Origin: an uncultured SAR202 cluster bacterium | GTDB lineage: Bacteria; Chloroflexota; Dehalococcoidia; Lucifugimonadales; Lucifugimonadaceae | NCBI GenBank assembly: GCA_902620405.1 | Contig: CACNIC010000005.1 | Coordinates: 1-63,240 of the forward strand | Reading direction: 5' to 3' | DNA length: 63,240 bases | Part shown: piece after piece, positions 9,163-56,347 of the stretch | How positions within the stretch are numbered: position 1 is the first letter of the stretch | Layout: the number at the start of each line of letters is the position of its first letter | Position numbers and translations under genes: made by a program | Notes under the pieces: model-generated | What the model was told of the DNA's origin: nothing | Database searches by the model: none | Seen by the model: the letters and a program-made list of their open reading frames with translations, nothing else

Positions 9163-9237
9163 TGGTCGCGGGGGACGGACTCGAACCGTCGACCTTTGGG
9201 TTATGAGCCCAACGAGCTGCCGCTGCTCCACCCCGCA
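9163..9237 (-). tRNA. Initiator tRNA-fMet (anticodon CAT)
   Basis: A 75-nt cloverleaf with anticodon loop CTCATAA (CAT). The anticodon stem has the three consecutive G-C pairs (GGG/CCC) diagnostic of initiator tRNA. Position 1-72 is U-G rather than a Watson-Crick pair, consistent with the weak first pair that initiators need. CCA is encoded. It sits unusually between the 23S and 5S genes, 41 nt after 23S and 13 nt before 5S. Confidence 0.94.
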
Positions 9238-52278: not shown

Positions 52279-53148
52279 ATGGAAATAAAACAATATATAA
52301 AAGATTACACAACCCTTACAAAGCCTAAAGTAAATTTACTTCTTGTAATAACAGCCCTTTCAGCTATTTTTTTAGCAAGCGATAGTCTTCCTAGCATCAG
52401 CGTATTAGTTGCAGTTATAGTTGGAGGTACTTTAGCTTCTGGAGGTGCTGGTGCAATAAATCATTCTATTGATAAAGATATTGACAATACCATGAAAAGG
52501 ACCTCAAAAAGACCAGTAGCAGGAGAAAGAATAAGCAAATCTAACGCATTACTATTTGGAATTGTTTTAAATGTGGCGAGTTTCATAATACTTACATACT
52601 TAACAAATGTACTTGCAGCATTAATGGCGATTAGTGGAACTTTATTTTACGTAATTATTTATTCAATTTGGCTGAAGAAAAAGACATACCATAATATTGT
52701 TATTGGTGGTGCTGCTGGATGCTTTCCACCTTTGGTAGGCTGGTCTGCAGTTACTGGTGATTTGAGCCTTTCTGCTTGGTATTTATTTGCAATAATATTT
52801 TTTTGGACTCCACCACATTTTTGGGCTCTGGCCATGTTAATGAAAGATGACTATTCAAAAGCAAATATACCAATGTTGCCTTCTGTTGTTGGAATTAAAG
52901 CTACATTTAAACCCATGACACTTCACACTGTAACACTGATCCTTTTAACACTAGTAATGACTTTCGTTAACAGCAAACTTAGTTATATATATTTCTTTTC
53001 ATGTCTTACTATTGGTACATACTATTTATTTTTAACGTACAGATTGTATAAAGACTATAACAGACAAAATAACTTAAAAATATATAAATTTTCATTACTA
53101 TATATGATGTTGTTTTCAGTTATAGTAATAGCCGATTCTTTACTTTAA
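52279..53148 (+). CDS. ctaB: Protoheme IX farnesyltransferase (heme O synthase)
   Basis: 289 residues, a UbiA-type prenyltransferase with about eight or nine helices. Asp-rich motif NHSIDKDIDNTMKRTSKRP, VIGGAAGCFPPLVGWSAVTG and FFWTPPHFWALAMLMKDDY are typical. It farnesylates heme b to heme O, the substrate of CtaA. It ends 3 nt before the stop of the facing rplT. Confidence 0.96.
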   Translation: MEIKQYIKDYTTLTKPKVNLLLVITALSAIFLASDSLPSISVLVAVIVGGTLASGGAGAINHSIDKDIDNTMKRTSKRPVAGERISKSNALLFGIVLNVASFIILTYLTNVLAALMAISGTLFYVIIYSIWLKKKTYHNIVIGGAAGCFPPLVGWSAVTGDLSLSAWYLFAIIFFWTPPHFWALAMLMKDDYSKANIPMLPSVVGIKATFKPMTLHTVTLILLTLVMTFVNSKLSYIYFFSCLTIGTYYLFLTYRLYKDYNRQNNLKIYKFSLLYMMLFSVIVIADSLL

Positions 53149-53151
53149 ATC

Positions 53152-53508
53152 TTAATTGTTTTCAGCTGAAGATTCTTGAACAATTTTTTCGAAAGCTTCA
53201 AAATCATTGTAAGCCAATAATGATAAAGTTTTTCTATCAAGTTCAATGTTAGATTTTTTAAGATTATTTATTAAGTTGGAGTAACTTAATCCACATTTTC
53301 TTGAGGCAGCGTTTATCCTTGTTATCATCAATGATCTCTGGTCTCTTTTTTTAGACCTTCTATGTGCAGTGCTGTAAGCTAATGCATGAATTAAAGATTC
53401 TTTTGCAACTCTAAATCTCCTATGCCTGGAACCCGAGTGCCCTTTAACACTATCTAAAATTTTTTTATGTCTTCTGTGGGTTGTAAAACCACCTTTTACT
53501 CTAGCCAT
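53152..53508 (-). CDS. rplT: 50S ribosomal protein L20
   Basis: 118 residues. The basic N-terminus RVKGGFTTHRRHKKILDSVKG and the core SRHRRFRVAKESLIHALAY, RSKKRDQRSLMITRINAASR and DRKTLSLLAYNDFEAF are typical. L20 is an early assembly protein and, in several bacteria, a repressor of its own operon. It starts at the base after rpmI. Confidence 0.97.
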   Translation of the reverse strand: MARVKGGFTTHRRHKKILDSVKGHSGSRHRRFRVAKESLIHALAYSTAHRRSKKRDQRSLMITRINAASRKCGLSYSNLINNLKKSNIELDRKTLSLLAYNDFEAFEKIVQESSAENN

Positions 53509-53703
53509 TTATTTCCTCAACAACTTGATTATTCTTTTTCCAACTGCTTCATCAAGAAGAACTTTGGAGCCGAATAATCTCTTATTTCTTTTAGATTTTT
53601 TTCTTCTTAGGTGACTTTTCATGCCTTTTGATCTCATTATTTTTCCATTACTACTTAATGAAAATCTCTTTGCAGCACCTTTATGTGTTTTTATTTTTGG
53701 CAT
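53509..53703 (-). CDS. rpmI: 50S ribosomal protein L35
   Basis: 64 residues: PKIKTHKGAAKRFSLSSNG at the start and KSHLRRKKSKRNKRLFG in the core, the normal L35. It sits in the standard infC-rpmI-rplT order, 5 nt after infC and 0 nt before rplT. Confidence 0.97.
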   Translation of the reverse strand: MPKIKTHKGAAKRFSLSSNGKIMRSKGMKSHLRRKKSKRNKRLFGSKVLLDEAVGKRIIKLLRK

Positions 53704-53708
53704 AATAC

Positions 53709-54251
53709 TTACTTTGGAGCAATTATAATACTCAAAGTCCTACCTTCCAAACTTGGAGGTTTATCAATTTCTGAAATACTCTCCAAATCATCATTTATTT
53801 TCTTTAATATCTCAACACCTAAGTCAGGGTAGGCATTTTCTCTGCCCCTCATTAATAAAGATATTTTAACTTTATTGCCTTCTTCTAAAAACGAAATAAT
53901 TTGCTTTTTCTTGGAATCAATATCATGTTGACTAATCCTCATTCTCAGCCTTATCTCTTTAAGCCCAATTTTACTTTGCGCTTTTTTTGCTTGCTTAATT
54001 TTTTTTGCTTGTGAAAATTTAAATTTTCCGTAGTCAAGTATTCTGCAAACAGGAGGTGACTGGTTAGGACCAACTTCTACTAAATCTAAGCCTTGTTCTT
54101 TAGCAAGTTTTATGGCTTCACTTAAACTTAAAACTGTTGACTCAGCCCCATCGTTATTTCCACCAAAAACTATTCTGACTTTATCAGCTTTTATCCTTTG
54201 ATTAACTCTGTAATCTTTATCAGAATTTTTATTCTTTTGTATAGTAGGTAT
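53709..54251 (-). CDS. infC: Translation initiation factor IF-3, AUA start codon
   Basis: About 180 residues. The N-terminal domain reads YRVNQRIKADKVRIVFGG, LDLVEVGPNQSPPVCRILDY and GKFKFSQAKK. The C-terminal domain reads LRMRISQHDIDSKKKQIISF, KVKISLLMRGRENAYPDLG and GRTLSIIIAPK. No ATG, GTG or TTG lies in frame between the upstream stop (54261-54263) and the middle of the protein. The first usable codon is ATA at 54251-54249, 5 nt after a perfect AAGGAG. E. coli infC uses AUU, which IF3 itself rejects, giving autoregulation. Starting at the first internal ATG (53942) would delete the whole N-terminal domain and is not credible. Confidence 0.9.
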   Translation of the reverse strand: MPTIQKNKNSDKDYRVNQRIKADKVRIVFGGNNDGAESTVLSLSEAIKLAKEQGLDLVEVGPNQSPPVCRILDYGKFKFSQAKKIKQAKKAQSKIGLKEIRLRMRISQHDIDSKKKQIISFLEEGNKVKISLLMRGRENAYPDLGVEILKKINDDLESISEIDKPPSLEGRTLSIIIAPK

Positions 54252-54292
54252 TGAAACTCCTTAACAAATGTATTTATATTGAAGACTGCGAA

Positions 54293-54322
54293 ATCTTAGC
54301 ATCTTTTAGTATTAATGGTCAA
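54293..54322 (-). promoter_or_regulatory. Promoter of infC-rpmI-rplT
   Basis: On the minus strand TTGACC (54322-54317), an 18-nt spacer ending in TGC and TAAGAT (54298-54293) make a strong candidate promoter with an extended -10. The predicted start near 54286 gives a leader of about 35 nt before the AUA codon. Confidence 0.65.
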
Positions 54323-54411
54323 TCTAACTACAAAAGATATTAGGTTAAAATTAACAATTGTGAACATTCTTTTAATTTTGAATAACTCAAATCATAAACA
54401 TTGTTACTTTG

Positions 54412-54420
54412 TGTTAATAT
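54412..54420 (+). promoter_or_regulatory. Extended -10 element immediately upstream of ftsH
   Basis: TGTTAATAT fits an extended -10 (TGn plus TAATAT at 54415-54420) with no good -35. The expected transcription start, 6-7 nt downstream, coincides with the ftsH ATG at 54428. No Shine-Dalgarno lies between, so a leaderless ftsH mRNA is possible. Confidence 0.4.
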
Positions 54421-54427
54421 AGTAAAT

Positions 54428-56347
54428 ATGGGAAATCAAAGAAAAAATTTATTAGTTTATATTGGGGTTATAAGTGTAATTATAGCTGGATTCTTTATTT
54501 TATTTGACGGAGGAGTTGGGAGGTCTGAAGAAATTCCAATGTCTTCTGTAATTGCTCTTACTGAGAATCCGCCAATTGGTCAAAGAGTTAATATTCTAGT
54601 AAAAGGTGATGAGCTTGAAATAAGTTCTGGCAATCAATCATACACATCAAGAAAAGAACCTGGAAGCAGTATTTATAAAATATTACAAGACGCTGAAATT
54701 AATCCTGCAAATTATCAAGTCGAAGTCCAAGGCTCAAGTGGCTTCGGCGGAATCTTTTCTATCCTTCTAAGTTTTCTTCCTCTTATTCTTTTTGGTGGAA
54801 TACTCATCTTCATGATGAGGCAAGCTCAAGGGGGTGCTAATAATGCCTTAGGATTTGGTAAAAGTAAAGCTAAAAGATTCGTAGGGGCTAAAGCAACAGT
54901 AACTTTTTCAGATGTTGCTGGCGTTACAGAAGCAAAGCAAGAATTAGAAGAAGTTGTTGAGTTCTTGAAAAATCCAGAGAGATTTTTATCTTTGGGTGCC
55001 AGGATTCCAAGGGGGGTGCTTCTTGTTGGTCCTCCAGGAACTGGAAAAACTTTATTAGCACGTGCTGTAGCTGGAGAAGCTGGAGTGCCATTCTTTTCAA
55101 TAAGCGGTTCTGAATTTGTAGAAATGTTTGTTGGTGTGGGTGCTTCTAGGGTAAGGGATCTTTTTGATCAAGCAAAAAAACACTCTCCATGTATTGTATT
55201 TGTTGACGAAATTGATGCCGTTGGAAGACATAGAGGTGCTGGTCTCGGTGGCGGTCATGATGAAAGAGAACAGACTCTAAATCAGATTTTAGTTGAAATG
55301 GATGGTTTCGATACTTCAACAAATGTTATTGTTTTAGCATCAACAAATAGACCTGATATTCTTGACCCTGCTCTCCTAAGGCCTGGTAGATTTGATAGAA
55401 GAGTTACACTAGATAACCCAGATATAATGGGCAGGAAAGCTATACTAGAAGTTCACTCAAAAGGAAAGCCTCTTGAAAGTGAAGTTGAAATGGAAAAAAT
55501 TGCAAAACAAACTCCTGGATTTAGTGGAGCTGATTTAGCAAATCTCGTTAATGAAGCTGCTATATTAGCAGCACGTAGAGGTGCAAAAAAAATTGGTTTG
55601 GCTTCACTTGTTGAATCAATCGATAGAGTTATTGCTGGCCCAGCAAGAAAAAGCAAGGTTATTACCGATGAAGAAAGAGAAATAACTGCTTATCACGAAG
55701 CTGGACATGCGGTAGTTGCTCACAACATACCTCATGCCGACCCTGTTCACAAGGTATCAATTATTTCGAGAGGTCAAATGGGCGGATACACAAGATATTT
55801 ACCTGAAAAAGATAGGTATTTACAAACTAAGGGTCAATTTAAAGCTTATATTGCTTCTGCAATGGGCGGAAGGATTGCTGAAAAAGTTAAATTTGGTGAA
55901 ATAACCACTGGTGCCAGTAACGATATCCAAGTAGCTACCAACATTGCAAAAGAAATGGTAACAACTTATGGAATGAGTGATAAGTTAGGCCTTAGGGCAT
56001 ATGGCAGGAAGCAAGAAACTGTATTTCTAGGAAAAGATGGAACAGAACAAAGAGACTATAGTGGAAAAACAGAGGAATTAATCGATAAAGAAATTAATTT
56101 ACTGTTATCTGAAGGTGAAAACACTGCAGAAAAAATTTTAATTAAACATTCAGACCAAATGGAAAGGCTTGCTAAATATTTGCTTGAGTATGAAACAATT
56201 GATGAAGATGAGCTTACAAAGTTATTTGCGGGTGAAGAAGTTTCGCCCCCACTAGTAGGTGAAACTCTTGCCCATTCTGGGGAGCAACCTGAAAGTGTAT
56301 CTGAAAAAAAATCGCCACCGACTGACATTGAGCCTCAAGCGAGCTAA
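54428..56347 (+). CDS. ftsH: ATP-dependent zinc metalloprotease FtsH
   Basis: 639 residues. One membrane helix lies near residues 9-26 and a second near 105-125, around a small periplasmic domain. The AAA+ module has [22 protein letters not shown], the pore motif EMFVGVGA and [13 protein letters not shown]. The SRH is [16 protein letters not shown]. The zinc site is [10 protein letters not shown], with a third ligand in the downstream [10 protein letters not shown] region. It degrades membrane and regulatory proteins. ATG 54428 is chosen over an upstream TTG (54401), which lies in the promoter region and adds nine unlikely residues. It overlaps trpA by 1 nt. Confidence 0.95.

Follow-up and report, generated by a model that had tools for sequence, protein, structure and literature searches.

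How is translation of infC, the gene for IF3, started at a locus whose reading frame offers no canonical start codon? The window, i.e. the whole stretch of 63,240 nucleotides from an uncultured SAR202 cluster bacterium (Chloroflexota, Dehalococcoidia) analysed here, has a GC content of 32% and belongs to a draft genome of 967 kb in 32 contigs that is about 70% complete. Behind an in-frame TAA, the infC frame reads GGA GTT TCA ATA CCT ACT ATA CAA AAG ... GTT AAT CAA AGG. As the initial annotation had noted, the frame encodes the full IF3 N-domain and contains no ATG, GTG or TTG upstream of it; the first such codon is an ATG at 53942, within the C-domain, and a caller restricted to ATG/GTG/TTG open reading frames therefore yields only the C-terminal 77 amino acids, again as predicted. 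The product read from ATA matches the NCBIfam infC equivalog TIGR00168 with 191 bits at a cut-off of 60 (E 1.1e-56, residues 12-180) and IF3_N (PF05198) with an E-value of 1.9e-25, the sole IF3_N match in the draft genome. Testing for a full-length IF3 found both the N- and the C-domain and the gene order infC-rpmI-rplT, while ftsH lies upstream of infC on the opposite strand.

Table 1 Features of the infC region and the initiator tRNA gene, in coordinates of the window
Feature	Position	Strand	Basis or remark
infC (IF3), 180 aa, predicted start ATA	53709..54251	-	Open frame after TAA; matches to TIGR00168 and IF3_N
In-frame stop TAA closing the infC frame upstream	54263-54261	-	
Predicted infC start codon AUA	54249..54251	-	5 nt after AAGGAG; same codon class in nearly all relatives
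Shine-Dalgarno AAGGAG	54257..54262	-	Matches anti-SD CCTCCTTT in the 16S of this genome
Second in-frame ATA, alternative infC start	54240..54242	-	14 nt after AAGGAG; similar to the start in genus g5, ATA CAA
Predicted infC promoter, TTGACC, 18 nt, TG-extended -10 TAAGAT	54293..54322	-	Scan match; unchanged across 7 members of the genus
Conserved block GATGCTAAGATTTCGCAGT, running from the extended -10 to predicted transcription start	54285..54303	-	Invariant in 7 genus members
rpmI (L35), operon gene after infC	53509..53703	-	Name from sequence and gene order, order as in E. coli
rplT (L20)	53152..53508	-	Name from sequence and gene order, order as in E. coli
Initiator tRNA (CAU)	9163..9237	-	Three G-C pairs in anticodon stem; weak first pair (U1, G72)

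The 3' end of the 16S rRNA of the host genome reads GGCTGGATCACCTCCTTT / GGATCACCTCCTTT, which makes AAGGAG a 6-nt match, and both this motif and the ATA 5 nt behind it lie where the initial annotation had placed them. The genome has a normal anti-Shine-Dalgarno sequence and a normal initiator tRNA, the latter located with RF00005 and ARAGORN; counts made with the pattern GGGNTCATNANCCC, which is one base too long, are void.

For comparison, infC loci were gathered at every rank from genus through family, order and class to phylum, and at each locus we read the codons that precede the conserved [VIL]N in the N-domain. An AUH codon with a Shine-Dalgarno match of at least 4 nt was assigned as the start unless an NTG codon had a longer one, so that the following starts are rule-based assignments, not measurements; the same script returned the known AUU for E. 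coli infC as positive control. Among the 71 loci of the GTDB family we assigned 63 AUA, 5 AUC, 1 CUA and 2 UUG, the only canonical starts. The order gave 49 AUA, 14 AUC, 5 AUU, 1 GUA and 1 doubtful GUG, and the class set 39 AUA, 4 AUC, 1 AUU and 2 UUG, with 2 loci left without assignment. AUA thus prevails across order and class with replacement by AUC or AUU, and these two lead in the rest of the phylum (19 AUC, 17 AUU, 9 AUA, 3 without assignment). Loci without an assigned start may use CUG, ACG or a farther AUU. In probable Dehalococcoides genomes the site reads AAGGAGG TAG CCA GGA ATA. Such an alignment of relatives had been proposed in the initial annotation as a check, and it shows AUA, AUC or AUU kept after the Shine-Dalgarno sequence nearly throughout. 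In 49 family loci NTG is absent from the upstream stop to the domain, and every one of them has an AUH codon there. For infC, the frame was found to lack a canonical start and to carry a conserved AUH codon behind the Shine-Dalgarno sequence, and an AUH-type start is kept across the class. Mapped on a FastTree phylogeny of 237 IF3 proteins, the codon state changed at least 42 times, with about 3 changes to or from NTG, which shows evolutionary retention of the disfavoured codon class, although ATA is a single transition away from ATG.

Exceptions exist. Two loci of the same genus (L002 and L003) and those of a related family, f61 (L291 and L292), apparently use UUG, so that a non-canonical infC start is dispensable. 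In f61, which has apparently shifted to UUG, the N-terminus also differs, reading TTG AGG A[AG][AG] CGA. Upstream of infC, L002 and L003 carry GGGAGG and, behind it, ATA codons at which a short leader frame begins; the frame ends 2 nt before the UUG start in L003 and overlaps it in L002. This possibly reflects either a frameshift or translational coupling to a leader peptide started at AUA. As a separate observation, one draft genome (G032) has two IF3 genes, each with ATA at the start position, which could be contamination (4%) or a genuine second IF3.

A promoter about 35 nt upstream of the start had also been claimed. TTGACC-N18-TAAGAT agrees with the consensus at 9 of 12 positions and has TG before the -10 hexamer; it is one of 5 scan matches where 2.1 are expected by chance, yet it does not vary among the members of the genus that were compared. 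In these 7 genomes, both hexamers and the block that runs on from the extended -10 (TAAGAT is followed by TTTCGCAGT) are unchanged while much other intergenic sequence varies, and GATGCTAAGATTTCGCAGT occurs only once in the genome even with up to 3 mismatches allowed. Within the whole promoter block (54285-54322, minus strand), the conservation of the stretch past the -10 exceeds the needs of a promoter, and this stretch may represent a regulator site. Rfam leader families, including the Bacillus-type L20 leader, were not found in 53000-54800.

From the comparison we consider it very likely that infC is initiated at AUA. We further regard it as probable that IF3 limits its own synthesis through this start. 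In the mechanism that we propose, infC would have a promoter of its own and a leader of about 35 nt, and initiation by ribosomes would take place at the AUA at 54251, assisted by AAGGAG. IF3 rejects mismatched start codons. The pairing of fMet-tRNA with AUA would leave a third-base mismatch, IF3 would destabilise the AUA complexes and so repress its own synthesis, and infC translation would rise again when free IF3 falls.

Since AUA, AUC and AUU are isoleucine codons too, the conserved ATA might be an ordinary internal codon, with the real infC start farther upstream or in another frame. Several GC-rich relatives indeed have long open frames upstream of infC, some with NTG codons, but in the window, as in many relatives, the ATA is preceded within a few codons by a stop, and no NTG falls between the two. 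Moreover, conservation starts at the ATA codon: within the family alignment, stops occur solely upstream of the start column, where variability is also high, residue entropy drops exactly at this column (2.7 bits before it, 0.12 bits at it), and 62 of 71 family members have a Shine-Dalgarno match of at least 4 nt ahead of an AUH codon. Codon choice points in the same direction. ATA occupies the start column in 55 of 62 family loci, and the corresponding count for an internal isoleucine that is invariant, ten codons on, is 8 of 62 (Fisher P 2e-18; 34 of 36 as against 4 of 36 among GC-rich members), and the isoleucine usage of the same genes predicts 14.4 instead of the 55 observed (P ~1e-30); these P-values are nominal because the genomes are related, and the count of changes on the tree is the better argument. 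Codon bias and upstream stops argue, if indirectly, against a plain internal isoleucine, which we consider very improbable. Even less credible is a canonical start masked by a sequencing or assembly error: the genome is a draft, but the identical ATA recurs in most of the family, including 7 separate genomes of the genus, which in practice refutes this reading.

Accepting an AUA start, one has to choose between two ATA codons. Initiation at the second ATA would give the product (M)QKNKN... and leave the first ATA within the leader. Its context, ATA followed by CAA AAG, resembles the ATA CAA AAA start of genus g5 and also UUG CAG, with which infC apparently starts in L002 and L003. However, its aligned distance to AAGGAG is 13 nt, whereas spacings mostly fall between 5 and 11 nt among 118 unambiguous relatives. 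The first ATA is preferred on these grounds, although its aligned spacing of 4 nt is at the short end of the range shown by the relatives and as such counts against the explanation we favour. Within the genus pattern ATA CCT xxx ATA CAA, the ATA CCT is invariant among the members compared, and proline or alanine as second codon, the rule across the order, fits the first ATA rather than the second. In one relative (L008) a stop immediately precedes the first ATA, so that no sense codon comes before it. We infer that the first ATA is the start and consider a start at the second unlikely. Fairly unlikely, too, is that AUA merely fixes a low, constant rate of IF3 synthesis with no IF3 feedback. 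Expression from non-AUG starts in S. aureus amounts to about 10% of that from AUG (PMC13009471), and data on IF3 feedback were found for no member of the Chloroflexota; a low rate could nevertheless be achieved by a weak Shine-Dalgarno sequence or by UUG, yet it is AUA, AUC and AUU that interchange and NTG that is nearly absent.

The comparison thus supports an AUA start and E. coli-like self-control as probable features of this locus, as the initial annotation had it. It does not support its further claim of an independent version of the circuit, since non-AUG infC starts were found throughout the sampled Chloroflexota and are also reported from Streptomyces, Listeria and S. aureus. A single widespread circuit whose codon drifts would explain the data no less well than an independent origin, and so would repeated convergence. 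With moderate confidence we propose that in the Dehalococcoidia, and more broadly in the Chloroflexota, infC is held within the starts rejected by IF3 (AUA, AUC and AUU, rarely CUA or GUA, perhaps CUG or ACG) by selection against AUG and not for one particular codon. If this is true, the circuit would be of ancient origin among bacteria, and AUA would have become fixed as the version preferred in this class. Start-codon feedback on infC would also cover an uncultured marine lineage and, judged by the comparison, the class as a whole. Dozens of switches among AUA, AUC and AUU with almost none to AUG would offer a testable case in which rejection by IF3 is itself the selected quality. In gene calls limited to ATG, GTG and TTG, infC will be truncated or misplaced across the Dehalococcoidia.

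The literature searched, which comprised open-licence papers only, yielded no account of class-wide retention with frequent exchange of AUA, AUC and AUU. An AUA start of infC as such is already published for S. aureus, where Ribo-Ret density was seen at the AUA and autoregulation was proposed (PMC13009471); our finding is not new in kind. The codon is the same, observed there and predicted here, but S. aureus belongs to the Bacillota, and extended Shine-Dalgarno motifs are reported at its non-canonical starts (PMC13009471). The infC starts of Streptomyces (ATC, often misannotated; PMC5472188) and Listeria (ATT; PMC13068326) likewise belong to the class disfavoured by IF3, with other codons and in other phyla. 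In E. coli, IF3 controls itself through an AUU start (PMC5472188). Our locus shares with it the order infC-rpmI-rplT, a predicted non-AUG start and an IF3 of 180 amino acids; in contrast to E. coli, where thrS lies just upstream, the predicted start is AUA, ftsH is located upstream on the other strand and infC appears to have a promoter of its own.
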